A stretch of 64,000 nt of DNA from Flavobacteriaceae bacterium UJ101 (lineage in GTDB: Bacteria > Bacteroidota > Bacteroidia > Flavobacteriales > UJ101). Positions 7,683-31,080 of this stretch are shown here, piece by piece (the stretch's first letter is position 1; every line of letters starts with the position of its first letter). The notes under the pieces were generated by a model that was given only the letters and a program-made list of their open reading frames with translations, searched no databases and was not told where the DNA came from. The stretch covers positions 310,001 to 374,000 of the forward strand of contig CP016269.1 of the NCBI GenBank assembly GCA_001880285.1, in the 5' to 3' direction. Made by a program: the position numbers and the translations under genes.

Positions 7683-8642
7683 TCATAATGATTTATATAA
7701 ATCGGCTAAATCTTTAGCTCCATTTTCATCAAAATTATAATCAAGTGAGGTTTTATAACTATTTTCTATAATTCTTTTTAAACTATTTATATCGTGCAAT
7801 TTATAACATTTCACCAAATTATGCCGATCAACAACATCTGTTGCTAGTATCATTTTATTATAAAACAATCCTTCTTTAATAGTTAATGCGTCCCCATCAG
7901 TTGTGGTATTTCTAATAATAATATCTGATCTTTTTATAACATGAATAAATGAATGTTCATTAGTTAAAATGAGAATATTTTTAGGAACATTTATTTGTTC
8001 ATCATCAATCTTTTTTAAATAGCTTTTCGTTGGATCTGAAATAATTAATTTATATTTTTCACCTAGTTTATCAAATAACTCTATTAGCTCTAAAACTCCA
8101 TATAAATCTTCACCATTTTTATCTAAAGCATATTTACCATTTGTAGAACAAACTACAACATTTTGATGGCTAATAAAATTATCAATTTTTTCAATATTCT
8201 CTTTATCACAATTACTTTTAACAGAACTCAATGGAGGTATAAAAGCTGTAATATATTGTGTGTTTTTATTAATTTTCTTCCCTATTTTCAAACTATCTTC
8301 ATTTAATACAATCGGAATTTTAGTGATCTTTAAAGCTAAATTATTAATAAAATAGCGCCAACCTGAGTATTGTTTCAAATTTCCATGAAATGTTAGAATA
8401 CTTTTTTTATTCAAAAAAAAACAATACACTGCTATTATTAATTTAAAAAATACATTAGAAGTATGTAAATGAATAATTTTATATTCTCTTATTTTTTTTA
8501 ATATATCAAAAAAAGAATTCTTTCTATAATCAATAAACGTATATGGAATTTCTTTTTCTTTTAAGAATTCATTTATCCTACTGATATGAATTGTCACACC
8601 ACCTATTGGAGGAGGTAAAGTACCTATTATCAACAAATTCAT
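7683..8642 (-). CDS. glycosyltransferase (GT4-like, PPPIGGV type)
   Basis: 319-residue GT-B-type protein. The N-terminus MNLLIIGTLPPPIGGVTIHI is characteristic of a GT4-like subfamily, and the C-terminal half contains IIRNTTTDGDALTIKEGLF, the equivalent of the sugar-nucleotide-binding E-x7-E region. The reading frame can be opened further upstream to 8825. I chose the ATG at 8642 because family similarity starts exactly there, the longer version would overlap the upstream wzy-like gene by 184 bases, and TAATG at 8644-8640 makes a coupled stop/start. It probably adds one sugar of the repeat unit in the cytoplasm; donor and linkage are unknown. Confidence 0.85.
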   Translation of the reverse strand: MNLLIIGTLPPPIGGVTIHISRINEFLKEKEIPYTFIDYRKNSFFDILKKIREYKIIHLHTSNVFFKLIIAVYCFFLNKKSILTFHGNLKQYSGWRYFINNLALKITKIPIVLNEDSLKIGKKINKNTQYITAFIPPLSSVKSNCDKENIEKIDNFISHQNVVVCSTNGKYALDKNGEDLYGVLELIELFDKLGEKYKLIISDPTKSYLKKIDDEQINVPKNILILTNEHSFIHVIKRSDIIIRNTTTDGDALTIKEGLFYNKMILATDVVDRHNLVKCYKLHDINSLKRIIENSYKTSLDYNFDENGAKDLADLYKSL

Positions 8643-9910
8643 TATATCTGTTTTAATTTTTCTTCTGTAATTCCACCTCTTTCTTCTAATACATAAAATC
8701 GAAATATAATTAACATAAACATTTGCCAATGAAATGTATAAAACCCTTGAGAAGCTATAGACATTACTAATGTAGTTAATATTATGTAGAAAAATATCTT
8801 TTTCATTAAAAAAATATTTTTCCAATTATATATACTATATGCTATATATTTTAAAACTAAAGCAGTAAATAAAATTAAAGGTATAATACCATATGCCAAT
8901 AAAAAGGCAAGATAATCACTATCTGTAAAAAAAGTTCCTGTTTGAGTCAAAAAATATGTTTTACCCCAACCTAAAAAAAGATTCCAAGGTACAGACAAAG
9001 CCTTGTTTAATTTACCTAACCATATAGCATCACGACCACCAAGCCCTTTTGTATTCCCTTCTTCAATATTGGTAAACAAATAATAGAGTTTTATAAAGTA
9101 TTCGTCATAATATATCACGGCAAAAGTAGACCCTATTAACAAGATAAATAATAACTTATAATTTGCTTTTTTTCTTTTCTTTTCAAAAATCAAATCCATA
9201 ATTAAAAAAGCAATCACAAAGAAAACGAGGGATACTACGTGCGTTCTACTACCAGATAATAAAATAATTAGAACTTCCATTAAACATGCTAATCCTAATA
9301 GGTAATATAATTTTTTATTTTTCTTACAATAAGGCATAATCATAAAATGCACTATAAAAAGTACATTCATTATCATACCATGTAATCCCCCATGTGTTGA
9401 TAAACCTTTAACATAATGACTAAATCGAGCATGGGCAGTTGATTGATAATTATTTATTATAAATTGACCTATAGCTGTCCCCTTATAAAACATTTCAAAA
9501 ATAACAGCTACAAAATCTAAAAACACATAAATAGCTGTAAACCATATAAATATTTTAAATATTTTAAAATCAAATTTAAAAAAACACATAGAGAACACTA
9601 AAAAAAGTAGGGCTCTAAATACTTCTGTATATTCTCGTATATAAAATTCCATCAACATATCCCCTCGAAAAAGCAAACGAATATGATGGGCCAATAATAA
9701 ATACATAAAGAAAATAAATGTATAAGTAGTATCTATTTCAAATCGTATTTTTCTAAAATTAAAAAGTAATATAATCGTTGAAACAAAAAGTGTTACAACA
9801 TATATCCTAAAATTATCACCAACAGGGAAAAGGTAAAAAATGCTCAAAAACAAAATCCACCTTATTTTATCGATTGTATTTTTAGATATACTAAAAACCA
9901 TATACTTCAA
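8642..9910 (-). CDS. O-antigen polymerase/ligase-like membrane protein (Wzy candidate)
   Basis: 422-residue integral membrane protein with roughly 11-12 hydrophobic helices and a large extracytoplasmic loop near residues 270-320. The LLSGSRTHVVSLVFFV segment (about 216-231) matches the conserved motif of the O-antigen ligase/polymerase superfamily (PF04932-type). As the locus also encodes a Wzx-type flippase, this is the best candidate for the Wzy polymerase that joins lipid-linked repeat units in the periplasm. A ligase (WaaL-like) role cannot be excluded. The start overlaps the end of the upstream GT4 gene by 20 bases; Met4 is an alternative start that also overlaps. Confidence 0.8.
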   Translation of the reverse strand: MKYMVFSISKNTIDKIRWILFLSIFYLFPVGDNFRIYVVTLFVSTIILLFNFRKIRFEIDTTYTFIFFMYLLLAHHIRLLFRGDMLMEFYIREYTEVFRALLFLVFSMCFFKFDFKIFKIFIWFTAIYVFLDFVAVIFEMFYKGTAIGQFIINNYQSTAHARFSHYVKGLSTHGGLHGMIMNVLFIVHFMIMPYCKKNKKLYYLLGLACLMEVLIILLSGSRTHVVSLVFFVIAFLIMDLIFEKKRKKANYKLLFILLIGSTFAVIYYDEYFIKLYYLFTNIEEGNTKGLGGRDAIWLGKLNKALSVPWNLFLGWGKTYFLTQTGTFFTDSDYLAFLLAYGIIPLILFTALVLKYIAYSIYNWKNIFLMKKIFFYIILTTLVMSIASQGFYTFHWQMFMLIIFRFYVLEERGGITEEKLKQI

Positions 9911-11037: not shown

Positions 11038-12159
11038 TTATGAGTTGAAAAATAGTTTAATCGTTTTAATAATCTTATCTATATCATCATTTGATAATCC
11101 TGCATATAAAGGTAGTCTTACTAAAGTATTTGTATAACGATCACTTTCTTCTAATATTCTTTTTTCTATTTTCTCGTTTTTATAATAATCACTATCATGT
11201 AAACTTAAATAATGAAATACAGCGTGTATATTATTTTCTTTCAAAAAAGTTATCAACTTAGTTCTTTCTTCTAAAGAATTACAAAGTAAATAATACATAT
11301 GACCATTTTTTGTAGCAAATTCAGGAAGTACTCTTTTATTGATCAAAGGTAAATCTTTTAACTCTTTATCATATTGTTCCCATATTTCTAAACGTCGTTT
11401 CTGAATTGCATTTAAACCTTCTAACTGAGCCCATAAAAAAGCTGCATTGAGTTCTGATGGTAAAAATGAGGACCCTGTATCAATCCATCCATATTTATTA
11501 ACTTCACCTCTAAAAAATTGAGATCGATTGGTTCCTTTTTCCCATATAATTTCAGCTCTATTAACAAATCTTTCATCATTAATTCCTAATAAACCTCCTT
11601 CTCCACAATGAATATTTTTTGTTTCATGGAATGAAAAAGCTGATAAATGACCTATCGTACCTAAAGCTCTACCTTTATAATAAGAATCTATTCCTTGAGC
11701 AGCATCTTCTATTACTAATAAATCATATCGATTGGCTATATCCATAATCAAATCCATATCACAAGCTACTCCTGCATAGTGAACGGGAACTATAGCTTTT
11801 GTTTTCGATGTGATTAGGGACTCTATTTTAGATTCATCTATCCCTGGATGGTCCTTTCTACTATCAGCAAAAATTATTTTTGCTCCTTGTCTTATAAACG
11901 CAAGTGCTGTAGACACGAATGTATAAGAAGGAATAATAACTTCATCACCAGCTTTAATATTTGCTAAAATAGCGCACATCTCTAATGCATCAGTGCATGA
12001 TGTTGTTAAAAGTGTTTTTTTAAACCCATAATTTTTTTCAAAAAAAACTTGACATTTCTTTGTAAAAAAACCATTACCTGATAATTTACCATTTGCAATA
12101 GCTTCTTCTATGTAGAGTTGTTCCTTTCCTGTTATGTAAGGTTTATTAAATACAATCAT
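11038..12159 (-). CDS. rffA: dTDP-4-amino-4,6-dideoxygalactose transaminase-like (RffA/WecE)
   Basis: 373-residue PLP-dependent sugar aminotransferase of the DegT/DnrJ/EryC1/StrS family, close to E. coli RffA (WecE): VFNKPYITGKE at the N-terminus, TSCTDALEM, VHYAGVACDM, and the PLP-lysine motif SAFSFHETKNIHCGEGG (Lys181). RffA converts dTDP-4-keto-6-deoxyglucose to dTDP-Fuc4N. An RffC-like acetyltransferase is encoded three genes upstream in the operon, which fits a 4-acetamido sugar. A 2,3-dehydratase and a ketoreductase also sit nearby, so the real substrate could be a 2,6-dideoxy-4-keto sugar instead. Neither rmlA nor rmlB is in the window. It lies 1 base after the small flippase-like gene. 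Confidence 0.88.
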   Translation of the reverse strand: MIVFNKPYITGKEQLYIEEAIANGKLSGNGFFTKKCQVFFEKNYGFKKTLLTTSCTDALEMCAILANIKAGDEVIIPSYTFVSTALAFIRQGAKIIFADSRKDHPGIDESKIESLITSKTKAIVPVHYAGVACDMDLIMDIANRYDLLVIEDAAQGIDSYYKGRALGTIGHLSAFSFHETKNIHCGEGGLLGINDERFVNRAEIIWEKGTNRSQFFRGEVNKYGWIDTGSSFLPSELNAAFLWAQLEGLNAIQKRRLEIWEQYDKELKDLPLINKRVLPEFATKNGHMYYLLCNSLEERTKLITFLKENNIHAVFHYLSLHDSDYYKNEKIEKRILEESDRYTNTLVRLPLYAGLSNDDIDKIIKTIKLFFNS

Positions 12160-12160
12160 T

Positions 12161-12538
12161 TTAATATTTTACTGTTATAAAAAGTGCTAAGATAATCAAA
12201 ATTAAACCAATAACTTTCCCCCAAGTAAATGTTTCACCAAATAAAAATATGCTAAAAATAAAAACTAAAATAAATGATAAACTCATAAAAGGGTATGCAA
12301 AAGATATTTCAAATTTATTCATAGCTGCCATCCAAAAGAAACTAGCAATAAATGCTGAGATAAAACCAAAAAAAATAAAAGGGTTTAATAATAAATATAT
12401 TACTGACCAACCTTTTTCCATCAAAGATTGATTTTCTGGAAAACCTTCAAAATTTCCCATTTTATACTTTATTAATAATTGTCCTATTACAGTAAAAAAT
12501 ATAGTCCCTATAATATAAATAAAATTAAAATATTTCAT
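12161..12538 (-). CDS. small EamA/SMR-like four-helix membrane protein, candidate lipid-sugar flippase
   Basis: 125-residue protein with four predicted transmembrane helices (about 7-23, 46-68, 75-95, 101-122), the size and layout of SMR/EamA proteins such as ArnE/ArnF. FVIGQLLIKYKMG-like and FAYPFMSLSFILVFIFS-type segments match the family. It is encoded directly between a GtrB/ArnC-like undecaprenyl-phosphate glycosyltransferase (3 bases away) and an RffA-like aminotransferase (1 base away). I therefore infer that it flips an undecaprenyl-phosphate-linked deoxy-amino sugar to the periplasmic side, as ArnE/ArnF or GtrA do. A generic small-molecule exporter is possible but less likely in this setting. 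Confidence 0.7.
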   Translation of the reverse strand: MKYFNFIYIIGTIFFTVIGQLLIKYKMGNFEGFPENQSLMEKGWSVIYLLLNPFIFFGFISAFIASFFWMAAMNKFEISFAYPFMSLSFILVFIFSIFLFGETFTWGKVIGLILIILALFITVKY

Positions 12539-12541
12539 TTT

Positions 12542-13465
12542 TTAAAAATTAATTTTTTCTTTAACAATAAATACAGGTCTACCTTTAGATTCTTCAAATA
12601 GTCTACCTATATAAATACCTATTACCCCTAATAATGTTATAACGATACTTGATAAAAACCATATTGAAAGCATTAAACTAGTATAACCTGGTTGATTAAT
12701 TCCTCCTAACAGAAATTTAATGAATACTATAACACCTATTAATAATGAAAAAATTGACATCCCCAATCCTAACGATACAATTAATCGTAATGGTTTATCG
12801 GAAAAAGAAAGAATAGAATCTACTGCTAAATTTACTAATCTTACAAAGCTATAAGAAGTGGTTCCTTCAAATCTCTCCCCATGAATGACTTCTAATTCTC
12901 CAACTTTGAATCCTATCCAACGAATCATCAAAGGAAACATTTTTTTATAATCATTTAGATTAAGAATAGCATTTATAGTATCTTTGCTATAAATACCAAA
13001 ATTAGCAATAGTTGAATCTTGTTTTGTATTTGTCATATAAGAAAAAACGCTATAAAAAACTTTTGATGACATTCTCTTAAAAAAACCGTGTTTTCTTTCT
13101 TTTCTTTTTGCTAAAACAATATCATATTTCTCCTTTATAGCTTTTCTATACAGTCTTTTAATTTCTTGAGGATTATCTTGTAAATCACAATCCATTACAA
13201 CTATCCATTCTCCTGTAGCATATGATAATCCTGCTATAATTGTAGGGTGTTGTCCAAAATTACGACTTAATTTAATTCCTTTTACTTTAGACTCTTTATT
13301 AGTTATTTCTTTAATTTTTTCCCAAGATTTATCAGGACTCCCGTCTTCTGGTAAAATTATTTCATAATCATCCGTGATTTCTGAAACAGCTTCATTTATT
13401 CTTGAAACTAATTCTTCTAAAATACTTTCTGCTTTATAAACTGGACTGACAATTGATATTTTCAT
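12542..13465 (-). CDS. GtrB/ArnC/DPM1-like GT2 glycosyltransferase
   Basis: 307-residue family-2 glycosyltransferase. It starts MKISIVSPVYKAESILEELV; the donor-site Asp is in LPEDGSPD and the metal-binding motif in VMDCDLQDNP. It ends with two membrane helices (about 231-253 and 267-290), the architecture of enzymes that transfer a sugar from a nucleotide to undecaprenyl phosphate (GtrB, ArnC, DPM1). Upstream by 4 bases is an RffC-like acetyltransferase; downstream is a small four-helix flippase candidate. It should therefore load the locally made deoxy-amino sugar onto the lipid carrier for use outside the cytoplasm. The exact donor is an inference. Confidence 0.88.
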   Translation of the reverse strand: MKISIVSPVYKAESILEELVSRINEAVSEITDDYEIILPEDGSPDKSWEKIKEITNKESKVKGIKLSRNFGQHPTIIAGLSYATGEWIVVMDCDLQDNPQEIKRLYRKAIKEKYDIVLAKRKERKHGFFKRMSSKVFYSVFSYMTNTKQDSTIANFGIYSKDTINAILNLNDYKKMFPLMIRWIGFKVGELEVIHGERFEGTTSYSFVRLVNLAVDSILSFSDKPLRLIVSLGLGMSIFSLLIGVIVFIKFLLGGINQPGYTSLMLSIWFLSSIVITLLGVIGIYIGRLFEESKGRPVFIVKEKINF

Positions 13466-13469
13466 CTAT

Positions 13470-14165
13470 TTATTTTTTTATCCAATAATGATATATGTAT
13501 GTGTCCTCAAAAGATGTAAATAAATTCTTCTCATATAACTTGCATGCAGGAATATTATCTCTCTGTGTTGCTACTGTTAGTTCAAGTATTTTATTCGTGT
13601 ATAAATATTTTTGAACCCTTTTTATTAAAGAAGAAGCTATTCCTTTATTTCGTGCTTCATCTTTTACTGCTATCAAATCAATAATTCCTTTATCTTTATT
13701 TACAGTAAAAGCTATAAACCCTAGAATAATATTCTTTTCTTTCCATACATATATTTTCTTATTTTCACTTCCTTTAAAATAATGATTCAACCACACACTA
13801 TACATTTCTTCAAATTTATATCGAAGATTAAAATCTAATTTAAACCTTGAAAATTCACCACTTTTATAAACCAAAGTAATCAAATCATTAGAAATATTTT
13901 TCTCTTCAACAATATATTTATCTTCTAGTTCTACTTTTAATAAATTATTAATTCTATAAATTCTTTTTACATCAATTACATCTATATTAAATTTTTCTTT
14001 TATAAATTTTCTATTTTGCTCTTGTTTATCTGACTCATCAAAAATATAAATTAAATCCCAATCCTCTTCAATATTAAAACTACTATAAAATAGTGATTTA
14101 AGAACTTTTTTCTTTCCTATATTAATTTTGAAGAAATTACTATCCCAATCTAATCTTTCAATCAT
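13470..14165 (-). CDS. GNAT acetyltransferase, RffC (WecD)-like
   Basis: 231-residue protein with an N-terminal region starting MIERLDWDSNFFKINIGK and a C-terminal GNAT domain (about 125-228). The acetyl-CoA-binding loop is in DLIAVKDEARNKGIASSL. The WDS.FF..N-terminal pattern is shared with dTDP-4-amino-4,6-dideoxygalactose N-acetyltransferase (RffC/WecD) and related sugar N-acetyltransferases. It probably N-acetylates the 4-amino sugar made by the RffA-like enzyme encoded at 11038-12159. It is the first gene after a 227-base gap that contains a likely promoter. Confidence 0.75.
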   Translation of the reverse strand: MIERLDWDSNFFKINIGKKKVLKSLFYSSFNIEEDWDLIYIFDESDKQEQNRKFIKEKFNIDVIDVKRIYRINNLLKVELEDKYIVEEKNISNDLITLVYKSGEFSRFKLDFNLRYKFEEMYSVWLNHYFKGSENKKIYVWKEKNIILGFIAFTVNKDKGIIDLIAVKDEARNKGIASSLIKRVQKYLYTNKILELTVATQRDNIPACKLYEKNLFTSFEDTYIYHYWIKK

Positions 14166-14301
14166 TATTTTTATTTTTTACAACTTAATTTAAATAAAAT
14201 TCTCTCTATAATTGACAAACTTTATTTTTCTTTTACACTTAAAATATTTTAACAATTTTACATTATAAAAAACTTTACTTTAATATTCAATAAAAATCGC
14301 A

Positions 14302-14333
14302 CAACTATATTCATTTTAAATTCTATATACAAA
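14302..14333 (-). promoter_or_regulatory. probable Bacteroidota promoter ahead of the rffC-like gene
   Basis: On the minus strand, TTTG (complement of 14330-14333) is followed after exactly 20 bases by TATAGTTG (complement of 14302-14309). This is one base off the Bacteroidota -7 consensus TAnnTTTG. It lies in the only sizeable intergenic gap (14166-14392) of the polysaccharide locus, about 137 bases upstream of the rffC-like start. It would allow the rffC/GtrB/flippase/rffA group and the genes beyond to be transcribed apart from the upstream block. The rest of the gap is plain AT-rich sequence with no gene that I can see. Confidence 0.45.
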
Positions 14334-14392
14334 GTTAAATATACTATCATCCATTTTATAATATCTAACACTTTTTATATATTAATACACCA

Positions 14393-15574
14393 TTAGTAAA
14401 GTTGTCTTTTCAAAATAATCATAAAAAAGAAATAAAACAATCCTGATAAAACATGAGCAATATATATATAATTTATATATTTTGCTTTTACTGTTTTATC
14501 AATTATAAACCTTCTCAAACTTTCAGATAAAGATACCAAAAACAGCAAATATGTTGTAATAACTATTTGCCAATAAAAATTACCATGAGTACTTCTTGGT
14601 CCTCCTTCTGAAATCAATATAAATATTAAGAAAGCAAATACATTTAATAAAATAGTATACAGATATAATTTTTTATTCTTTATTTTTCCCCCATAAAAAA
14701 AACATAAAATCCAAGGAAAGAGTAGTGAAAAAAATATTGATACGGGAAAATAATAACTAGAGTATTTCATTAAATTCCAAAAATCAAATAAACCTATTTT
14801 CAAATATGAGTCTTCATTATTAAGTGACCCTATTTGATATATATATATTAATATAGTTTGCAATAACAAAACCATTGCCCCTATGATCATAGGAATGAAA
14901 TAACTAATATTTTTGAATATATTTTTTCTAAATTCTAATAAAATAAATAATCCTGTTGCTGGTAAATAACAAAGGAAAAAAGAAGGTTTTATTAATAAAC
15001 TTATTATTATTAATAATGACAATATTAAAATAGATTTAATAGATTTATCTTTATTTATAATAATCAAATATTGTTTCCAAAATATAATAATTGCTATAGG
15101 AGTTAAAAATATTATAGTAGAATTATGATACACATTAGGAGTAAACCTACTTAAATAATAAGATCCTCTTAAAAGATTTATATCATGTAAAGAAAATACA
15201 AATAATAATGACATAGCCATCAGTATATAATACAAATCATTTTTAATAATATCCTTCAATAATTCTTTCAAAATATATTTTGATAAAATATATTTAAATA
15301 CCCACGAAATACTCAATAATAAAACTCCATTAATAATTATTAAATGATATTTATTTGAAAAAGCTGAGAGTAAATTTATTAAAAAATAAAATAAAAAATT
15401 TGGAGGATATTTTATTTCATTTAAATTGATAGCATATATAGAATCAATATGAGTTCTAACATCAGAACCAATTCTATAATAAAAAAAACTATAAAATATG
15501 AAAAATAGAAGAAAAACAAATATACTTTCTATATAAATAGAATATTTCTTAAAATTATTTAAATTCATTATCAT
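14393..15574 (-). CDS. polytopic membrane protein, GT-C-like
   Basis: 393 residues with about 10-11 hydrophobic helices. The first extracytoplasmic loop contains RIGSDVRTHIDSIYAINL followed by KYPPNFLFYFLINLLS. An acidic residue in the first large loop followed by a proline/aromatic segment is the usual layout of GT-C glycosyltransferases, which use lipid-linked sugar donors on the outer side of the membrane. It overlaps the next GT-C-like gene by 4 bases. It may transfer the sugar loaded by the GtrB/ArnC-like enzyme, or serve as a second polymerase. No close named family was recognised. Confidence 0.55.
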   Translation of the reverse strand: MIMNLNNFKKYSIYIESIFVFLLFFIFYSFFYYRIGSDVRTHIDSIYAINLNEIKYPPNFLFYFLINLLSAFSNKYHLIIINGVLLLSISWVFKYILSKYILKELLKDIIKNDLYYILMAMSLLFVFSLHDINLLRGSYYLSRFTPNVYHNSTIIFLTPIAIIIFWKQYLIIINKDKSIKSILILSLLIIISLLIKPSFFLCYLPATGLFILLEFRKNIFKNISYFIPMIIGAMVLLLQTILIYIYQIGSLNNEDSYLKIGLFDFWNLMKYSSYYFPVSIFFSLLFPWILCFFYGGKIKNKKLYLYTILLNVFAFLIFILISEGGPRSTHGNFYWQIVITTYLLFLVSLSESLRRFIIDKTVKAKYINYIYIAHVLSGLFYFFFMIILKRQLY

Positions 15575-17610
15575 TTTAATTTATAAATAGTAATTATTTT
15601 ATTTTCAAAAACTTTGCTCAAATGTACATTATCTTCTTCGATACTATTTAAGTTTGGATTACTTTTCTTATTATTCACAAGAAATTTAATATTATTTTTA
15701 AGCATAATAGATTCTATATTCAATCTATTAAAAATCGAATCATTTTTTTTCATGTTATGGTAAACTTCCTCTTTAAAGGAAAAATATTGCTTTTTTTCTC
15801 CATCCCTCTCAATTATATCTAATTTTCTTGGCGTATAAAAGTAACCTTCAATAAATGCTTGTCGACCTGAAAAAGCTGTATAATAAAAGAATCTACCTTT
15901 TTTATCTCCTAAAATAGGCTCATTATTTAAATTTAAATAATGTCGATTAGTTGCAAAAATATCCTTCTTTTCAGAATTATTTTTCAACCACTCTAAAGCT
16001 TGTTTTTCTTCCAACGTAATAACTCCTCTATCTTCTATAGCATAAGTAATATTTGCATACCCATAATTATTAATAATATCTAATACTATTTGCTTTGTAA
16101 ATAACATAACCGCTAAAAAAAACACTCCATAGACCAGCAAAAAAGATCCTTTCGTTTTATATTCATATAACTTCTTAAAACATAATATTGATAGTATATT
16201 AATGAACAGTAAAGACCCAAACATAAAGTAAAAATGAGAACTCCCTTCATGATAAAGAATATACATCAAAACAATACCTGAAAAAGCTATTCCATACATA
16301 TATAATTCAAAGATAGTAGATTTAGTAAAATTTTTAACAAACAATCCTACACTAATTAATAAAAGTATTCCTTGAAAAGGAATAAACATAAAAAAATGAA
16401 ACGGTATTAATAAAAAAGAAAAATTTTCATTTAGTCCTACTAAACCTAAGATCTTCTTACCAAAAGGAAAACTTGTGTTAATAGTATCCATTACAAACAC
16501 CTCTACTGAAGATATACTATCAACACCCAAAATAATATAATGACAAGAAACATAAACAAATAAAGTTAATACAAATAACTTTAAGATATATAAATCTATA
16601 TGCTTTTTTAGAAATGTATTCACAAATAACACACAAAATAATATAACAGGAATCAATAAAGCAAAAACACTTTTAAATCCTGTAAGTATAAATACCCCAA
16701 TTAACAATAACGTTACTTGTATAGTTGTGTATTTTTTATTTTTCAGAAAATCAATCACCAAAAGATTGACTATTATAAATATACAAAAAGATGGTAATAT
16801 AGCATTTGGGTTTTTAAAAATATGATACTCAAAATAATTTAAAGTAACTGATGCTGAAACAGAAGAAACAAATAATGTACTTAGTATAAAAAAAACTATA
16901 TATTTTTCTTCTTTCTTAAAAAAATATTGACCTATGCTATACATACTAAAACTTAGTATACTCAAATAAATAGGTATTATATAATAAAAACTAATATCAA
17001 CTACAGATACTCCTGTAGTTTTATTTAATATACTCACTATCCAATCATCAAAAAAATGATATTTAAAGGGTAAGCCTTTTACATGTATATCTGGAGGAAA
17101 AAAATTTATATCAAAGGCATATGAATTTCCTGCATGCCAGAACTTATCTGAAGTAAAGTAGTCGAAAATTTTAACCTTCTCTAAAGAAGGAGTTCCCATA
17201 ACATATAATGAAAATATAAAAATTATAAAAATTAATATGTAACCTAAATACCTTCTTTCATAAGCAACTTTTAATGGATTCTTATTTTTAAGAAAAAAAT
17301 TCAATATGCTTACTATTAAAGGTATAATTAATAAAATATAAATATTGTTTATTTTTATTGTTACAAAATCTACTAAAAAAACAAAAAATAATCCTAAAAT
17401 ATTAGAAATCAATATATTAGAAAATGGTATATTTGAAAAATCAACTTTAGTCAACCTATAAAAAAATAAGCCTGGTAAAAAAATATATCCTACATATCCT
17501 ATTAAAACTTTTAAAAAATTCAAAATTGATACTTCTGAATAATAATAACTCATAAAAAGTACCAGAATAGATATTAAACCTAAAAATATTTCTTTTTTAT
17601 TTATATTCAT
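15571..17610 (-). CDS. large membrane protein, GT-C glycosyltransferase-like
   Basis: 679 residues: about 12-13 transmembrane helices (residues 1-520) followed by a soluble C-terminal domain of about 150 residues. The loop FPPDIHVKGLPFKYHFFDDW (about 172-191) resembles the acidic/His-Tyr loop seen in GT-C proteins. The C-terminal stretch with ALEWLKNNSEKKDIFATNRH is typical of large archaeal and bacterial membrane glycosyltransferase-like proteins. It probably uses a polyprenyl-phosphate sugar as donor in the periplasm. It overlaps the smaller GT-C-like gene downstream by 4 bases and the oxidoreductase gene upstream by 14, so the four genes 14393-20037 form one transcription unit. Donor and acceptor are not known. 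Confidence 0.6.
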   Translation of the reverse strand: MNINKKEIFLGLISILVLFMSYYYSEVSILNFLKVLIGYVGYIFLPGLFFYRLTKVDFSNIPFSNILISNILGLFFVFLVDFVTIKINNIYILLIIPLIVSILNFFLKNKNPLKVAYERRYLGYILIFIIFIFSLYVMGTPSLEKVKIFDYFTSDKFWHAGNSYAFDINFFPPDIHVKGLPFKYHFFDDWIVSILNKTTGVSVVDISFYYIIPIYLSILSFSMYSIGQYFFKKEEKYIVFFILSTLFVSSVSASVTLNYFEYHIFKNPNAILPSFCIFIIVNLLVIDFLKNKKYTTIQVTLLLIGVFILTGFKSVFALLIPVILFCVLFVNTFLKKHIDLYILKLFVLTLFVYVSCHYIILGVDSISSVEVFVMDTINTSFPFGKKILGLVGLNENFSFLLIPFHFFMFIPFQGILLLISVGLFVKNFTKSTIFELYMYGIAFSGIVLMYILYHEGSSHFYFMFGSLLFINILSILCFKKLYEYKTKGSFLLVYGVFFLAVMLFTKQIVLDIINNYGYANITYAIEDRGVITLEEKQALEWLKNNSEKKDIFATNRHYLNLNNEPILGDKKGRFFYYTAFSGRQAFIEGYFYTPRKLDIIERDGEKKQYFSFKEEVYHNMKKNDSIFNRLNIESIMLKNNIKFLVNNKKSNPNLNSIEEDNVHLSKVFENKIITIYKLK

Positions 17611-18598
17611 TTTTAATACAATTATTTTTCTCTTTTATATTTTCGCCTATGGTTCTTACCTCTTCAATCAATTTTGCTTGAACTAAAATATTATTCCATT
17701 CTTTTTCAAAATTATTTTCTTTAACTATTGTAGTAAAATGATTAATCATATTTTTGAAATGATCATCTTCTTTTAATTGAATTTCCTTTTTATCTCCTTG
17801 TTTTTCAATTATAATCGTTGGTTTAAAATCCTTTTTAGCAGTATAAGCCCTCGTTGTTGTTAGTTTTCCCTTACTTCCCCATATTTCATATCCACATTGA
17901 TAAAAGTTATCAAACCCAAAGGATACCTCAGAAAAAATATCCTTTTCTTTATGGACCAAAAAAGCACCTCCAAACCAATCTACATTAAATTGGTCATTTT
18001 TCTTTAAAAAAGAGGATTTTACTTGAAAACTGTCCCCCATCATAAATGTGGTAGCTTTTAACGTATATGCTCCTGCATCAAGTAATGCTCCTCCTCCCAA
18101 ATCTTTATTATACCTAATATTTGTTTTTTCAGGAAATGGAGGAAATCCAAAATAGGCCCTAAATGCTCTTATAGCTCCTATTTCATCATTCTTTAACAGA
18201 TCAAATACAAACTGATGTTGAGAATGGTGCTGAAATTGAAAATTTTCAACTACAGCAATATTATTTTCTTTTGCACACTTTACTACATTTTCTGCTTCTG
18301 AAAATGTCATAACTGCAGATTTTTCTACCAGTACATGCTTTCTATTTTTAATAGCTTTCATAATCCATTCATAATGTAACCCTGTAGGTAATGGAATATA
18401 AACAGCTTCAATAGATTCATCATTTAGAATCGCATCATATGTTTCTGCATATTTACATTGAAATTTCTCAGCTACTTCTTTTGCTTTACTAATATTTCTA
18501 CTACTAACTGTAATACTATTATTATCAGATGCTCTTAATATTGCTGGAATAACGGAATTTACCGCTATATTTGCACAACTTATTATACCCCAGTTCAT
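17597..18598 (-). CDS. Gfo/Idh/MocA oxidoreductase, probable sugar 3-ketoreductase
   Basis: 333-residue NAD(P)-dependent oxidoreductase. It has an N-terminal Rossmann domain (NWGIISCANIAVNSVIPAI; VYIPLPTGLHYEW), the EK motif in HVLVEKSAVMT, and a C-terminal GFO_IDH_MocA domain with GGGALLDAGAYTL. Homologues next to NDP-hexose 2,3-dehydratases (for example KijD10 and TylC1 types) reduce the 3-keto group left by the dehydratase, giving a dTDP-4-keto-2,6-dideoxyhexose. The gene is 8 bases downstream of such a dehydratase, so I assign the same role. The stereochemistry of the reduction cannot be read from sequence. Confidence 0.82.
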   Translation of the reverse strand: MNWGIISCANIAVNSVIPAILRASDNNSITVSSRNISKAKEVAEKFQCKYAETYDAILNDESIEAVYIPLPTGLHYEWIMKAIKNRKHVLVEKSAVMTFSEAENVVKCAKENNIAVVENFQFQHHSQHQFVFDLLKNDEIGAIRAFRAYFGFPPFPEKTNIRYNKDLGGGALLDAGAYTLKATTFMMGDSFQVKSSFLKKNDQFNVDWFGGAFLVHKEKDIFSEVSFGFDNFYQCGYEIWGSKGKLTTTRAYTAKKDFKPTIIIEKQGDKKEIQLKEDDHFKNMINHFTTIVKENNFEKEWNNILVQAKLIEEVRTIGENIKEKNNCIKNEYK

Positions 18599-18606
18599 GT
18601 TTATAT

Positions 18607-20037
18607 TTATATATATGAAATTGCTGAAATTAAACTCCTTGCTTGAATATTTACAAAATTATTAAATTGAATGAATTTTTTTAACTGATTCAATGTCAGC
18701 CAATTATAATTACTCGGCACTTCCTCTGAAAAACTATCATTCACTTTAATAATCATATTTCTATTTTGTTCTTTATAAAAACGTCCTCCTTCTTCTGATT
18801 GATAGGTATCATAAAGAACTTCATCAGAGTTCGCATTTAAAATAGTACTTAAAAACGGAATTGTTTCCATATTTTTATTATTTACAGAACTGCATTGAAC
18901 AGTTGGTGCCATTTCAATAGTGTCCATAAAACCTGGTTCAACTCTCCCTTGTACTAAAAAGTGATAGATCCCTTTAATTTCTTTAACAATAAAAGCACAT
19001 ATTCCTTTATGCATAGGTTTTATTAAAGGCTGATCCCATGAAACGACTTCTCTATTTCCTATTTCCACCGTAACACCTATAACTTCAAAATAGTCATTAT
19101 TAATCTGAGAAATTGTTTTTTCGCCTATTTCCCAGTCAGTTATATCAAAAACTGATTTAATACTTGTGTGAAGTTCATATTTTGATTTTAAATCTGTCAA
19201 CCAATGTATTATTTCTTGAAAAGGTCGTTTTGAAACATTATGAACTAACAATGACTTAAGAAAATGATTTCCAATAGATGATTGGTTACCTTTTATTATA
19301 TTAAAGAAATTATATGTATCTAATTTATAATCACCATATAAAAGTCCTGATATAACCGTTCGGGTATCCATATTTATAATATTATCAAAACTCATAAGGT
19401 ATTTAATTTGTCCTAATGTCAGCCATCTAAAATCTTGCTTAAGCTCTATATCTTCTTCAACATTAATAATAATATTTCGATTTCTTTTTCTAAAGAAACG
19501 TGCTCCTTGTTCTGATTGTAATTGATCTAAAATTACATTTTCTGGTTTTACATTGATAAAATATTCTAAATAATTAGGAAATCTTCCACCATGTACTTTT
19601 GTATAATTACTTTTCGTTGCTTGAACAGTAGGTGATAATTGTACACAATTTACATTGCCTGGTTCTATTTTAGCTTGTACCAAAAAATAAAGTACACCTT
19701 CTATTTCCTTTGTAATAAAACCTAAATAACCTATTTCTGGTTGATTGATAATAGGTTGTTCCCAATTTAGTAGTTCTTGATTTTGATATTTTATATCTAC
19801 TTGTAATCCTTTTATAGAAAAAAATTTGTTAGAAGAATGCTTTAAAGCACCTTCTTCTTTTGAAAATGACCAATTTCTTAGTTTATTAAATTCAATTTGA
19901 TTAACCTGTACTTTTACCTCTTCATTTCGTTCTTTAACCCAATTTAAAATTTCTTCATTTCCATAAAAAGGGTTTTCTAACAATAAAGATGATTTTAAAA
20001 TTTTATAATAAAGATTATTTATACTATGATTATTCAT
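18607..20037 (-). CDS. NDP-hexose 2,3-dehydratase
   Basis: 476-residue protein of the NDP-hexose 2,3-dehydratase family (EvaA, TylX3, SpnO type), which removes the 2-OH of dTDP-4-keto-6-deoxyglucose. The family has two similar halves, and both are visible: GYLGFITKEIEGVLYFLVQAKIEPG paired with GICAFIVKEIKGIYHFLVQGRVEPG-type blocks, then QLSPTVQ with EMAPTVQ, then LQSEQGARFFRKRNRN with YQSEEGGRFYKEQNRN. Its partner ketoreductase follows at once. This chemistry is best known from glycosylated antibiotics; here it sits in a surface-glycan locus. It is preceded by a 51-base AT-rich spacer after the GT4 gene, without a convincing promoter. Confidence 0.9.
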   Translation of the reverse strand: MNNHSINNLYYKILKSSLLLENPFYGNEEILNWVKERNEEVKVQVNQIEFNKLRNWSFSKEEGALKHSSNKFFSIKGLQVDIKYQNQELLNWEQPIINQPEIGYLGFITKEIEGVLYFLVQAKIEPGNVNCVQLSPTVQATKSNYTKVHGGRFPNYLEYFINVKPENVILDQLQSEQGARFFRKRNRNIIINVEEDIELKQDFRWLTLGQIKYLMSFDNIINMDTRTVISGLLYGDYKLDTYNFFNIIKGNQSSIGNHFLKSLLVHNVSKRPFQEIIHWLTDLKSKYELHTSIKSVFDITDWEIGEKTISQINNDYFEVIGVTVEIGNREVVSWDQPLIKPMHKGICAFIVKEIKGIYHFLVQGRVEPGFMDTIEMAPTVQCSSVNNKNMETIPFLSTILNANSDEVLYDTYQSEEGGRFYKEQNRNMIIKVNDSFSEEVPSNYNWLTLNQLKKFIQFNNFVNIQARSLISAISYI

Positions 20038-23209: not shown

Positions 23210-24177
23210 AAATTTTCTTTTTCAAAATAATAGGGTAAATCTGGATATAATTTTGCTTTTTTGGATCCTATAAATAATTGTATTCCTTTTGGTTTCAATA
23301 TTAAATCATTAAATTCTTTAATATATTCATCTCCTGGTACGAACCCTCCTTTATAATTTTTAGGATCTGCATTACCATGGTTCTTATCTTTTTTATCATT
23401 AGGAACAAAATCTCTCAAATATTGAATATTAGCTACCTTATCATATTCAGAAATTTCATAGAAATAACGACTATTATTCATATCCAATCCTAAACAAATT
23501 ATTTCTTTATATCCTTCTAAGTAACAAAAGTTTAAAATTTTATTAATCGATCCTAAATGATGTATTAATGTTTCATTATTTAGTGGAAAAATTTTACTTT
23601 TTTCGCGAAACTTAATTAGATCAAATAATATTCTTTTATTAGGGATTGAATGGAAATAAGGTACTTGACAATAATAGTCTTTTAAATATTCAAAATTAGA
23701 AAATTCTTCCTTATCAAGTATATGTGCTTTAATATTTAAATAACTAAAAATCTGTGGTATATTTTGATAAATCGCATCATTTTTCCAATTCTTATATGCA
23801 ATTTCTCTAATTTCCTTCATTTTTGCAAATTCTAAAAAAGCAATTGTTGGTTTAAAATTTTTGTTCATAAAAGATTGGTTAAGGCATATAATATCATGTT
23901 TATTAATATGCTTCCACTGTTCTTCTGATATATCATTTATCGAGGTTCCTGATCCTACTATAAAAACGGTATCAGATTTCTTATACTTCGAATAATCTAA
24001 AGTTTTTATGTTCGGCCATTCTGAATTATTTAATTCTTTCCTAGCAAAATACGATGGTATATCTCTTTTAAGGAAGTATAGAGTATCTTTATAAGAAAAA
24101 GATTCTTTTCTATACTTAATTTTTATAAATACATATAATGGGACACAAATTATGTTATAAAGTATATTTTTTATCAT
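23206..24177 (-). CDS. GT42/MAF_flag10-like putative nonulosonate transferase
   Basis: 323 residues, with an amphipathic/hydrophobic N-terminus (about 5-20). VFIVGSGTSINDI (about 71-83) followed by IICLNQSF parallels the nucleotide-binding start of Campylobacter Cst sialyltransferases (GNGPSL...RCNQ). Further on, LGSINKILNFCYLEGYKEII and LGLDMNNSRYFY match the layout of the Cst GYKEI-SGIDFY region, and NHGNADPKN could supply the late catalytic histidine. MAF/DUF115 proteins, which attach pseudaminic acid to flagellin, share this fold. As the gene is part of a pseudaminic-acid locus, I infer a pseudaminic-acid transferase. I see the pattern similarity directly; the function is inferred. Confidence 0.6.
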   Translation of the reverse strand: MIKNILYNIICVPLYVFIKIKYRKESFSYKDTLYFLKRDIPSYFARKELNNSEWPNIKTLDYSKYKKSDTVFIVGSGTSINDISEEQWKHINKHDIICLNQSFMNKNFKPTIAFLEFAKMKEIREIAYKNWKNDAIYQNIPQIFSYLNIKAHILDKEEFSNFEYLKDYYCQVPYFHSIPNKRILFDLIKFREKSKIFPLNNETLIHHLGSINKILNFCYLEGYKEIICLGLDMNNSRYFYEISEYDKVANIQYLRDFVPNDKKDKNHGNADPKNYKGGFVPGDEYIKEFNDLILKPKGIQLFIGSKKAKLYPDLPYYFEKENL

Positions 24178-25574
24178 TTCTGTTTTTTAATAAAGTTCAA
24201 AAGTAAAATAAATAGCAATAACAGTATCAAAATATAAATAGAAATTTTAATCATTATATTCTGATTAACAATAAAAAAAGCTACTAGTGTCATAAAAATA
24301 GTAATCAATAAAGATTCAACAGGTCTATAATTTACTTTTGAAAAATTTTTAAATTCTTTCAGTAAAAAACCTCTGTAGCTTAAATAAGTAACCCCTATAA
24401 AATAACCTACAGCTACTCCATAAATACCATAGATTGGTGTTACAATCAGATATATCAGTACTGTTAAAATTCCTCCTATAAAAGAAACTTTCCATAATTC
24501 TTTTGTCTTTTCTGTAAAAAATAAAACGGAGGTCGAAGCCATATACATAGGTTTATGATTAACAATCATAACAAGTATTATAACTAGATAATAGGAATCT
24601 TTTAATGTTTGATTTCTCATCAAAAAATCAACAAGTTCTTTTGAAAATATAGCTATTCCAAAAGTACCCGCAAAAACTAAAATTTGTACTATTCTTATTA
24701 AATATAATACTCTAATTTCATTCTTTTCCCTGTATTCTTTCATTATAATAGGACTCAATGCCTTATTAATTGCAAAAGAGGACAAATCTGCATAGCTATA
24801 TAATTTTTCTGCAAAATTATATTTTCCTATTAAACCTATATTAACGTTATAACGATCCATTATTATTTTATTGGAAGACCCTATTAAAAAACTTCCATAA
24901 CTATGAAAAACAGTAGGTAGTGAAATTTTTAAATATTGAATTATCAATCTTCTTTTAAAATTAAATATAGGTTTAATTCCTAATTTCATTAATGGATACC
25001 AACATGAAAAATTCCAGAATAATGTTCCTATAAAGGTGGCGTAAAACCATCCCATATATCCCATTTTATAAAACCGAATAAATACTACATTAAAAAAAAT
25101 TGTTATTAAAGAAGTTAATATTGTTCTTATTGTTATTGGTAAAGGTTTTTCTTCTAATTGATAGTAAAATAATGCCATATTTGAAACAGGACCAAAAAAT
25201 AACACTGGAAAAATTAATAAGAAAAGAATTAAGTATTTGTTATCTCCAACTTCATCAGGCATCAAAACATACAAAATAACAAACTGCAAAAAGGCATATA
25301 CAATCGTCCACAAAATTAAAAACCCATAAATTTGACGCCAAATCATGATATATCTATCAGGATGTTTAACATATGTATTGACCAATATTACACCAAAACC
25401 TAGTATAGAAAAAGCTCCTAAAAATGCTGAATAAGACATTATAGTTCCATGTATACCATAATCAACATCAGTTAAAAACTCTGTTATAAAGGGTAGCACA
25501 AAAAAACCAATGACTTTTGGTATTTGTGGTCCTAAACCGTATATAAATGAATTTAAAAAAAGTCTTTTTAGCAT
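24174..25574 (-). CDS. oligosaccharide flippase (Wzx-like)
   Basis: 466-residue polytopic protein with about 14 helices, of the polysaccharide-synthesis/MATE-like (MOP) superfamily. The start LKRLFLNSFIYGLGPQIPKVIGFFVLPF is typical of RfbX/Wzx proteins, and the helix pattern ends with a basic tail. It should flip the undecaprenyl-diphosphate-linked repeat unit to the periplasm, where the Wzy candidate (8642-9910) would polymerise it. It overlaps the GT42-like gene by 4 bases and lies 27 bases downstream of the PIG-L gene. Confidence 0.9.
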   Translation of the reverse strand: MLKRLFLNSFIYGLGPQIPKVIGFFVLPFITEFLTDVDYGIHGTIMSYSAFLGAFSILGFGVILVNTYVKHPDRYIMIWRQIYGFLILWTIVYAFLQFVILYVLMPDEVGDNKYLILFLLIFPVLFFGPVSNMALFYYQLEEKPLPITIRTILTSLITIFFNVVFIRFYKMGYMGWFYATFIGTLFWNFSCWYPLMKLGIKPIFNFKRRLIIQYLKISLPTVFHSYGSFLIGSSNKIIMDRYNVNIGLIGKYNFAEKLYSYADLSSFAINKALSPIIMKEYREKNEIRVLYLIRIVQILVFAGTFGIAIFSKELVDFLMRNQTLKDSYYLVIILVMIVNHKPMYMASTSVLFFTEKTKELWKVSFIGGILTVLIYLIVTPIYGIYGVAVGYFIGVTYLSYRGFLLKEFKNFSKVNYRPVESLLITIFMTLVAFFIVNQNIMIKISIYILILLLLFILLLNFIKKQK

Positions 25575-25601: not shown

Positions 25602-26306
25602 TTATATAATACTACGTACAATACAAAATGCTTCAGCATAATTTTTCCCAACAATAATTCCTCGTTGTTGAGCTAATATTTTAAGAGCTTCTGGTGATCT
25701 TGGATGTGGAAAAGATCTTTTTTCAAACTCATAAGCTTCCATACCTTTAATTTTTGCCTCAACATCTTGCTTACTAACCTCTATAAACAAATTTGGAATA
25801 AATTTTCTTGGTTCAGATGAAGCTATCCATTCTGTTCCTGATGGTGTCTCAAAAGTAATAATTGTATGAACTTTTTCATGACTCATGGGTCTTGTTGCTG
25901 TAACTACAGCTTCAAAAGTTCTTTGATGATCGATATTAACATCCCCTCCATGATGGGTGAAAATAATTTCAGGATTAAATTCTTCCTTTTCTTTTTCTAT
26001 AACCTTTATAATATCCAATAAATCTACTGAGTCAAATCGATTATCTGGAAAATCATAAATACCTACTGACTCATATCCTATCGATTTTCTAGCTTCTTCA
26101 ATATTTTGGCGATGGATTGTTAATTCTTCTTGCCATTTTTCTTGATCTCTTATGTCAGAGCGTGATGTGATACCTTCTCCTAAAATAATTGCTCTAATAA
26201 CACAATTATGCTCATGAATCAATTTATGCATAGTTGCTCCTAACCCCAACAATTCATCATCAGGATGAGCTACAACTACTAATATTTTCTTATTTTCAAA
26301 AATCAT
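25602..26306 (-). CDS. PIG-L/LmbE family N-deacetylase
   Basis: 234-residue zinc-dependent deacetylase of the PIG-L family. The metal-binding AHPDDE is at residues 13-18 and the second HxxDxxxDH-type block, HGGDVNIDH, at about 119-127. Known members remove N-acetyl groups from sugars such as GlcNAc-PI, GlcNAc-Ins and bacillithiol precursors. The gene overlaps pseI by 11 bases, so it should act in the pseudaminic-acid pathway, perhaps exposing an amine that the nearby formyltransferase (27323-28018) then formylates. A role on another sugar in the glycan is possible. Confidence 0.85.
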   Translation of the reverse strand: MIFENKKILVVVAHPDDELLGLGATMHKLIHEHNCVIRAIILGEGITSRSDIRDQEKWQEELTIHRQNIEEARKSIGYESVGIYDFPDNRFDSVDLLDIIKVIEKEKEEFNPEIIFTHHGGDVNIDHQRTFEAVVTATRPMSHEKVHTIITFETPSGTEWIASSEPRKFIPNLFIEVSKQDVEAKIKGMEAYEFEKRSFPHPRSPEALKILAQQRGIIVGKNYAEAFCIVRSII

Positions 26307-27330
26307 AATCTATATCCTCTTTTTGTAATCGATCTCCCAAAAAAAGATCTTTTTTCACTTTTTTACCTATAATAACTTCTAAATATTTAGGTGGTAATCC
26401 AAACCCTGGGCGTACAGATCGAACATTATCATGGCTAATATAATCACCTTTTGAAATATTTTTAGAAACATATAAAGATCTTGAAAATCTTTTTCCAGAA
26501 ATTTGTTTAGATGTTAAGTCATAAGTGACTTTCCCCAGTGCTGATTCAGCTTGCCTTACTTTTTCAACCATATCTGTAAATTCTTTTTCATCCATTGAAA
26601 AAGAAGCATCTGGGCCACCTATTTCCTTATTTAAAATAAAATGCTTTTCTATTACTCTAGCCCCCATAGCTACTGACAATACAGGTATTAAACTTCCTAA
26701 TGTATGGTCTGATAGACCTACTTTCACGTTAAAATCTTTACCAAATTGTTTTATCATCATTAAATTAGCTTCTTCAATAGGAGCAGGATAAGATGAAGTA
26801 CATTTTAATAAAGTTATATCTGTACATCCCTCTTCTCTACATGTTTCTACTGCTAATTTTATATCATTATAATCGGCAATTCCTGTTGATATTATCACAG
26901 GTTTTCCTTTAGAAGCAACATATTTCAATAAAGGTATATCGGTTATTTCAAAAGAAGCAATTTTATAAATAGGACAATCTAAATCTTCTAAAAAATCAAC
27001 AGCAGTTAAATCAAAAGGGGTTGAAAAACAAATTAACCCTTCTCGTTTTGCTTCATCAAATAATTCTTTATGCCATTCCCATGGCAAACTAGCTTCTTCA
27101 TATAATTCATATAAATTCTTCCCATCCCATATTGTTCCTCCTTGTACAATAAAATCATCTTTTGAAGAATTAAGTGTCATAGTATCTGGAGTATAAGTTT
27201 GCATCTTTATTGCATCTGCTCCAGCTCTCTTCGCAGCTCTAATTGTTTCTTTAGCAATATTAATATCACCTCCATGATTAGCTGACAATTCTGCTATTAT
27301 AAATACTTTATCAGACATATTTTTATTCAT
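26296..27330 (-). CDS. pseI: pseudaminic acid synthase
   Basis: 344-residue enzyme of the NeuB family. It condenses 2,4-diacetamido-2,4,6-trideoxy-L-altrose with phosphoenolpyruvate to give pseudaminic acid. The N-terminal TIM barrel (AELSANHGGDINIAKETI; IKMQTYTPDTMTL; CFSTPFDLTAVDFL) is followed by the C-terminal antifreeze-like SAF domain (about 285-344) with VRPGFGLPPKYL, the PseI-type version. QTYTPDTMT and the SAF signature favour PseI over NeuB or LegI. It overlaps its neighbours on both sides (8 and 11 bases). Confidence 0.93.
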   Translation of the reverse strand: MNKNMSDKVFIIAELSANHGGDINIAKETIRAAKRAGADAIKMQTYTPDTMTLNSSKDDFIVQGGTIWDGKNLYELYEEASLPWEWHKELFDEAKREGLICFSTPFDLTAVDFLEDLDCPIYKIASFEITDIPLLKYVASKGKPVIISTGIADYNDIKLAVETCREEGCTDITLLKCTSSYPAPIEEANLMMIKQFGKDFNVKVGLSDHTLGSLIPVLSVAMGARVIEKHFILNKEIGGPDASFSMDEKEFTDMVEKVRQAESALGKVTYDLTSKQISGKRFSRSLYVSKNISKGDYISHDNVRSVRPGFGLPPKYLEVIIGKKVKKDLFLGDRLQKEDIDYDF

Positions 27331-28018
27331 TCTCTTTTTTTTGATTAATTATTATTTTTGCATCTGCAATAATTGTTTGGTCTGCTTTTAAAGAAGCTCT
27401 AGTAAATTCTATTTTAAAATTATCTGTTTTAATATAAGCTTTAGGATACCCTTCTGCATCTAACATTCTTATATAATCATATATTCTCTCTATATCTGAA
27501 AATGATGTTATATCGCTCTGATTTGCCACTCTCCTTTTAAACTCTACAATTTTTCCTTTCTGCTCAATAGGATTCAAATCTTTTTCAATGATTTCTTTAA
27601 TCATTGTTTTAATTAAATTATTAGATCGATAAAAGATTTCTTCAGCAGTACCATAAAGTGATAAATCTTTTTTTAAATAGATTGGTCCTCCATCTAATTC
27701 TTTAACAACTTTTAGTGCTGATATTTTTGTTTCTTTAAATCCTCTATCTATTAAGTTTTGCAATGGACTCCCTCCTCTTCCAAATGGTAAATCAGTCATA
27801 TGGAATACAACACATTCAAAATTAGCAAAAATTTCCTCAGGAATTATATAAGACCAATGAGGAATGAAAATTTTATCTATTCTACTATCTACTAAGTTTT
27901 TATATGTAAAATCTTTCTTTTCACGAATAAAGACCCATTCTATGTTATCAGAAGATAGTTCTTCTACTAAACTTTTATTCCACTTTTTCTCAGATAGTAT
28001 AGCAAACTTTCTTTTCAT
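27323..28018 (-). CDS. formyltransferase-family protein (sugar N-formyltransferase candidate)
   Basis: 231 residues related to methionyl-tRNA formyltransferase (PF00551 fold). VVFHMTDLPFGRGGSPLQNL (about 70-89) holds the catalytic histidine (His73) and the P-x-x-RGG loop; ELDGGPIY (about 107-114) holds the catalytic aspartate. It is far shorter than tRNA formyltransferase and lacks its C-terminal tRNA domain. It lies between pseH and pseI, so I infer formylation of an amine on the pseudaminic-acid precursor or product with N10-formyl-tetrahydrofolate. The Asn normally two residues before the catalytic His appears replaced by Val71, which is worth checking. Confidence 0.75.
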   Translation of the reverse strand: MKRKFAILSEKKWNKSLVEELSSDNIEWVFIREKKDFTYKNLVDSRIDKIFIPHWSYIIPEEIFANFECVVFHMTDLPFGRGGSPLQNLIDRGFKETKISALKVVKELDGGPIYLKKDLSLYGTAEEIFYRSNNLIKTMIKEIIEKDLNPIEQKGKIVEFKRRVANQSDITSFSDIERIYDYIRMLDAEGYPKAYIKTDNFKIEFTRASLKADQTIIADAKIIINQKKENE

Positions 28019-28053
28019 ATTATTTTAAATTTAAATCAAACATTTATTCAATT

Positions 28054-28557: not shown

Positions 28558-28570
28558 ATAAAATTTTATA

Positions 28571-29563: not shown

Positions 29564-29567
29564 CCGA

Positions 29568-31074: not shown

Positions 31075-31080
31075 TACTAT

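Follow-up and report, generated by a model that had tools for sequence, protein, structure and literature searches.

The stretch analysed here, 64,000 nucleotides (nt) of the genome of Flavobacteriaceae bacterium UJ101 (GenBank CP016269.1, positions 310,001 to 374,000 of the forward strand; hereafter the window, whose numbering is used unless kilobases of the genome are given), carries eight consecutive open reading frames on the minus strand at 11038-20037. The question raised by this block is whether the products of one set of neighbouring genes could build a deoxy-amino sugar, load it onto a lipid and attach it outside the inner membrane. An earlier note had proposed such a joint pathway, with a 2-deoxy, 4-amino sugar as its product, inside a Wzx/Wzy locus. 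All eight genes were found in this interval. The same locus also encodes a Wzx of its own (24174-25574) and, at 8642-9910, a candidate polymerase or ligase of Wzy_C type.

Our analysis suggested that the block is probably a three-component extracytoplasmic glycosylation cassette for a sugar of the Fuc4NAc type, a judgement that sets the 2-deoxy step aside. The 2-deoxy step by the dehydratase pair, argued from gene linkage and the missing local C4 reductase, stands at about even odds. The most far-reaching proposal, in which the block makes an undecaprenyl-phosphate-linked 4-acetamido-2,4,6-trideoxyhexose that is added outside the membrane, and its 393- and 679-amino-acid (aa) membrane proteins represent two new extracytoplasmic glycosyltransferase families, is tentative and falls clearly short of an even chance.

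Gene order and predicted functions

In the order of transcription, the block encodes a 2,3-dehydratase, a 3-ketoreductase, the 679-aa and 393-aa proteins, an acetyltransferase, a family 2 glycosyltransferase (GT2), a 125-aa SMR/EamA-like protein and a DegT aminotransferase. The genes are tightly packed, with overlaps of 14 nt between the 3-ketoreductase and 679-aa genes and of 4 nt between the 679-aa and 393-aa genes.

The assignments made earlier for the four soluble enzymes were borne out by their families and nearest solved structures. The NDP-hexose 2,3-dehydratase (18607-20037, minus strand, as are all genes of the block) contains two Hexose_dehydrat domains (PF03559, Pfam, 3e-147), its nearest structure is that of the EvaA 2,3-dehydratase (4j7g, 5e-105), and it is predicted to remove the C2 hydroxyl of dTDP-4-keto-6-deoxyglucose. 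Its partner (17597-18598) belongs to the Gfo/Idh/MocA family (GFO_IDH_MocA, Pfam, 5e-21) and is closest to the sugar 3-ketoreductase 3rbv (4e-59); its Lys93 and Tyr178 are invariant in four aligned relatives and align with the Lys and Tyr of 3rbv. An EvaA-type 2,3-dehydratase thus adjoins a sugar 3-ketoreductase, the arrangement by which TDP-2-deoxysugar formation is recognised. The pyridoxal phosphate-dependent sugar 4-aminotransferase (AT; 11038-12159) scored above both WecE models (552.4 bits against a cut-off of 375 for the NCBIfam equivalog, and 502 against 434.85 for TIGR02379), and its nearest structure is WecE 4piw (5e-117). The GNAT-family N-acetyltransferase (NAT; 13470-14165), predicted to acetylate the 4-amino group, matched NCBIfam PRK10975 at 8e-20 with 71.6 bits against the WecD/RffC equivalog cut-off of 219, and is hence WecD-like only; a profile of its relatives matched the TDP-fucosamine acetyltransferase 2fs5 at 2e-11.

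For the membrane steps, the GT2 (12542-13465) had been described as GtrB/ArnC-like with two C-terminal helices, and it indeed showed full-length NCBIfam similarity to PgfS (4e-66) and ArnC (4e-54), both under the cut-off, and hydrophobic stretches at residues 225-260 and 260-292. By these features it would qualify as a polyprenyl-phosphate sugar synthase of the GtrB type, predicted to load undecaprenyl phosphate. The 125-aa protein (12161-12538), encoded between the GT2 and AT genes, agreed equally with its earlier description as a small four-helix EamA/SMR-like protein: it matched EamA of Pfam above the cut-off (4.5e-8) and ArnF of NCBIfam under it (8e-13), and has four hydrophobic stretches. 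It is a candidate for the flippase of GtrA, SMR or MATE type that three-component systems encode alongside the synthase.

On this basis the following route is proposed. RmlA and RmlB, whose genes lie outside the block, would supply dTDP-4-keto-6-deoxyglucose, whose 4-keto group the WecE-type AT and the WecD-like NAT would convert to a 4-amino and then a 4-acetamido group, giving a 4-acetamido-4,6-dideoxyhexose (Fuc4NAc type). The GT2 would transfer this sugar onto undecaprenyl phosphate, the ArnF/SMR-like protein would flip the lipid-linked sugar across the inner membrane, and the 393-aa protein, the 679-aa protein or both would hand it on to an acceptor at the surface, either a polysaccharide or a lipid. 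We infer the flipping and the transfer from the kind and place of the proteins, and the substrate flow and the acceptor are likewise predicted. The dehydratase and 3-ketoreductase at the head of the block may act before the AT and so yield a 4-acetamido-2,4,6-trideoxyhexose donor, a step suggested by the position of their genes, by the overlaps that run from them into the membrane-protein genes and by the lack of a C4 reductase at hand.

A recurring GT2-NAT-AT triad

A NAT profile applied at 1e-10 matched 36 of 395 genomes of the class, the genome of the window included. Around 28 other loci with a strong NAT, which were read up to about 8 kb on each side and less at contig ends, the GT2 and AT were both at most three genes away and on the same strand in 13, the GT2 only in five and the AT only in two. 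In L107 and L108, from two genomes of another family, the GT2-NAT-AT triad is accompanied by two polytopic proteins and a homologue of the 393-aa protein, with no dehydratase nearby. The donor served by this conserved core is most simply of the Fuc4NAc type, and the triad may be used as a marker to find such systems across Bacteroidia.

In several loci, polytopic proteins of differing size follow the triad: 491 and 504 aa in L107, 492 and 518 aa in L108, 602 aa in L109, 617 aa in L151, 430-433 aa in L153-L155, 560 aa (DUF6044) in L156, and 456 and 622 aa in L166. Such variety behind a common triad would fit a conserved donor side and a varying acceptor side. In L156, the DUF6044 protein (L156:9902-11584) stands directly after the triad, a position suggestive of a role for DUF6044 as a transferase.

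The two polytopic membrane proteins

The earlier description of two GT-C-like membrane proteins stands in so far as both are polytopic; a GT-C fold was not confirmed for either. The 679-aa protein (15571-17610) has more than ten hydrophobic stretches and a C-terminal soluble domain, and is a candidate extracytoplasmic transferase of GT-C type; the 393-aa protein (14393-15574) is a candidate second transferase. Neither has a Pfam or NCBIfam family or a PDB relative, and the AlphaFold models were unusable, with predicted local distance difference test scores of 39.8 for the 393-aa protein (two-sequence alignment) and 39.7 for the 679-aa protein (single sequence). The locus already has a Wzx and a Wzy_C candidate, so neither protein is needed in these roles.

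The 393-aa protein is tied to the triad. Among 395 genomes of the phylum its profile matched only the window, L107 and L108, and among the loci read around NAT it matched only L107, L108 and L176, the last being the contig of L094; in all four known places (the window, L094, L107 and L108) it is encoded beside GT2-NAT-AT. Invariant in this family are D38, H42, H150-N151, K196-P197, E323-x-G-x-R327, N332-F-x-W-Q and HVLSG, and the Asp-x3-His formed by D38 and H42 lies directly after the first helix. GT-C enzymes characteristically have acidic residues in an early loop on the extracytoplasmic side. The 679-aa protein carries D155-x3-H followed by YHFFDDW, which resembles a motif in the 617-aa protein beside the L151 triad; this likeness was defined post hoc, after both had been seen, and serves as a lead only. 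The Asp-x3-His motifs of the two proteins are suggestive of GT-C and go no further than that.

The 679-aa protein is an orphan, with no relatives among 296 genomes of the order or in the GTDB contig scan. Weak matches among the 395 phylum genomes looked chance-like where inspected, and comparison with 139 membrane proteins encoded in the other loci analysed (hhalign, phmmer) gave nothing convincing. Should the proposed role hold, polytopic families without any annotation would become candidate glycosyltransferases.

The dehydratase pair and its neighbourhoods

A scan of GTDB with the dehydratase alignment gave 559 confirmed loci, of which the best 80, mostly from Bacteroidota, were scored together with three further rows, one for the second copy in this genome and two from an order search, making 83 rows (L013 and L071 represent a single contig). 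In the near neighbourhood, 34 rows had only an aminotransferase of another type, 18 only a C4 reductase, 13 a WecE-like AT, three an aminotransferase of another type with a reductase, and 15 none of these; the WecE-like AT and the C4 reductase never occurred together among the nearest genes. An ArnC-like GT2 was close in nine of the 83 rows, and a reductase was present in seven of these nine, so dehydratase units with a GT2 of the lipid-loading type recur mostly in a reductase (2,6-dideoxyhexose) flavour. Units of dehydratase, ketoreductase and ArnC-like GT2 were found in L025, L067, L068, L087, L089, L090 and L094, and are candidates for a three-component system for 2,6-dideoxyhexoses; most of them include a C4 reductase, and several a large polytopic protein.

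One locus of this set, L042, is the single case that joins a WecE-like AT with an ArnC-like GT2 and two SMR/EamA-like proteins. Its independent combination of these membrane components with dehydratase, aminotransferase and ketoreductase was counted in favour of the 2-deoxy step, as was the mutual exclusion of WecE-like AT and C4 reductase among the nearest genes of the 83 rows. L034, L036 and L041, which also have dehydratase, aminotransferase, ketoreductase and GT2, were not counted, since three genes intervene, presumably for subunits of a 2-oxoacid oxidoreductase.

The genome is a single contig of 3.07 Mb and contains a second dehydratase (about 622.7-624.2 kb) in a second dehydratase/ketoreductase pair (about 621.8-624.2 kb), followed at about 624-625 kb by an epimerase-type C4 reductase candidate (Epimerase domain); the whole region spans about 621.8-625.1 kb (G000:C1; L011:13775-17087). 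No C4 reductase of the usual type is present in the block, and the sole close copy in the genome is the one beside this other dehydratase. Near the second pair lie genes that, from reading their sequences, we take to be RmlA and RmlB; RmlC is encoded elsewhere in the genome. The genome thus probably also makes a 2,6-dideoxyhexose. The GT2 and the WecE-type AT are each without a close paralogue in this genome.

One cassette or two

Several results weigh against the proposed cassette or against its 2-deoxy step. In the stretches read around the 28 other NAT loci neither a 2,3-dehydratase nor an SMR-like neighbour was detected, and near the triads among them no 3-ketoreductase was seen either. 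L094, from an uncultured Flavobacteriales (the stretch read as L176 ended short of its dehydratase), encodes in order dehydratase, ketoreductase, a methyltransferase-like protein, GT2, C4 reductase, a 730-aa membrane protein with TPRs, a second GT2, NAT, WecE-type AT and the 393-aa homologue, and thus holds the two sets next to each other as distinct units, in which the dehydratase set has a C4 reductase and a GT2 to itself. The nearest relatives of the window dehydratase mostly accompany a C4 reductase. In an aminotransferase tree, 20 triad enzymes, the window AT included, separated from 13 dehydratase-linked WecE-like ones (support 95/86 for the triad side); as the triad rows were chosen by similarity to the window AT, its placement is partly by construction and only the separation is informative. 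Close relatives of the window AT stand, L094 apart, in loci without an adjacent dehydratase, and the enzymes encoded between dehydratase and ketoreductase elsewhere form another group. Not every triad has an adjacent transferase, since the membrane neighbour in L150 and L152 (13 transmembrane segments) reads like an amino-acid permease and was rejected. Within the block itself, an AT-rich non-coding gap of 227 nt (14166-14392) interrupts the block between the 393-aa and NAT genes and could hold a separate promoter for the genes downstream, so the block may be two transcripts; promoter and terminator scans gave nothing above chance overall, with one promoter-like site matching at 10 of 12 positions (14290-14262).

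Much of this evidence would fit two adjacent cassettes, in which the dehydratase and ketoreductase, with the C4 reductase at about 624-625 kb, make a 2,6-dideoxyhexose for cytoplasmic glycosyltransferases or the 679-aa protein, and the GT2, NAT, AT, SMR-like and 393-aa proteins deliver an ordinary Fuc4NAc via the periplasm. The side-by-side layout with separate GT2s in L094, the lack of a dehydratase near other triads, the C4 reductases found with the closest relatives of the dehydratase as well as with its paralogue in this genome, the gap between the halves and the recurrence of dehydratase-ketoreductase-GT2-reductase units (L025, L067, L068, L087, L089 and L094) all speak for it. However, the block itself lacks a C4 reductase, the reductase locus is already served by its own dehydratase pair, and the halves are physically joined, as the triad-tied 393-aa gene overlaps the 679-aa gene, which in turn overlaps the ketoreductase gene. 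We regard two cassettes as rather unlikely. A distinctly improbable alternative dispenses with periplasmic decoration: the GT2 would be an ordinary cytoplasmic transferase that helps to build the repeat unit of the Wzx/Wzy pathway, and the two large membrane proteins would be of polymerase, ligase or acyl-transfer type. The GT-C fold that could not be demonstrated, the otherwise Wzx/Wzy-type locus and the lack of an SMR-like flippase candidate near other triads are consistent with this explanation, whereas the full-length ArnC/PgfS match of the GT2 with its two terminal helices, a layout typical of polyprenyl-phosphate glycosyltransferases, the SMR/ArnF-like gene between GT2 and AT, and the Wzx and Wzy candidate already present argue against it.

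Of the eight-gene joint pathway proposed earlier, what holds is that a sugar-making, lipid-loading and flipping set stands in one block; the conserved unit is the triad, and the link to a 2-deoxy step is weakened. The expected co-occurrence of all eight genes was borne out for the triad (13 of 28) and for the 393-aa protein beside it (four of four), but the dehydratase pair (L094 apart), the SMR-like protein and the 679-aa protein were not seen with them in the stretches read. The scattering of homologues that had been named as evidence against a module was thus seen in part: dehydratase and ketoreductase did not appear in the stretches read around other triads save in L094, while the linkage of the triad holds. 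Given this distribution, the separate units of L094 and the aminotransferase tree, the 2-deoxy, 4-amino sugar is one reading and not a demonstrated product, and the dehydratase pair seems to be a local addition to the recurring core of a probable Fuc4NAc-type cassette.

Comparison with known systems

WecE and WecD make TDP-Fuc4NAc for enterobacterial common antigen, in which WecF uses the sugar in the cytoplasm. The AT of the block is a WecE equivalog and its NAT is WecD-like, whereas in the block these enzymes are encoded together with a candidate flippase and a GT2 of polyprenyl-phosphate type. EvaA and sugar 3-ketoreductases form the TDP-2-deoxysugars of antibiotics; dehydratase and 3-ketoreductase are adjacent here too, but in a surface polysaccharide locus and linked to lipid-loading genes. 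With the Arn pathway, which places 4-amino-4-deoxy-L-arabinose on lipid A, the block shares an aminotransferase, an ArnC-like GT2, an ArnF-like SMR protein and polytopic transferase candidates, and it differs in having dTDP-hexose instead of UDP-pentose enzymes, an acetyl- instead of a formyltransferase, and no ArnA or ArnD homologue. The scores stayed below the NCBIfam equivalog cut-offs for ArnB (213 against 631 bits), ArnC (184 against 529) and ArnF (49 against 99).

Three-component systems combine a lipid-phosphate sugar synthase, a flippase and a GT-C transferase, with glucose, galactose or pentofuranose as donors (PMC11127046). As in GtrABC-type systems of this kind (PMC11127046), candidates for a lipid-phosphate sugar synthase, a small flippase and polytopic transferases are clustered in the block, here beside Wzx/Wzy genes. 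The donor predicted here differs: a 4-acetamido-6-deoxy sugar, perhaps also 2-deoxy, that enzymes of the block would make. As flippase the block offers an SMR/EamA-like candidate, and the transferase fold is unproven. No Pfam match to a GtrA-family flippase or a GtrC/GtrII-type transferase was found in the block. As the Arn equivalog tests also failed, the block would work like the Arn and Gtr systems without belonging to either, and what sets it apart from known three-component systems is the donor predicted for it and its membrane proteins, whose families lack annotation. No title or abstract describing this gene combination was found in the open-licence PMC literature, which is weak evidence of absence. 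With the proposed function, the three-component principle would reach beyond plain hexoses and pentofuranoses to deoxy-amino sugars whose synthesis is encoded alongside, which raises the question of whether a WecE-type enzyme accepts a 2-deoxy substrate when a 2,3-dehydratase acts upstream.

Other features of the window

The G+C content is 22-31% over window positions 1-36000, with its minimum over the two membrane-protein genes, against about 31-35% beyond, which suggests an acquired polysaccharide island. At 25602-34101, genes for NeuB, a cytidylyltransferase, PIG-L, a formyltransferase-C domain, GNAT, DegT, aldo-keto reductase and SDR proteins look like a nonulosonic acid pathway of the pseudaminic or legionaminic type, perhaps with formylation. 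A 1302-aa protein encoded at 40172-44080 combines GH18 and GH19 chitinase domains with a cellulose-binding domain and a C-terminal sorting domain of the Por secretion system.

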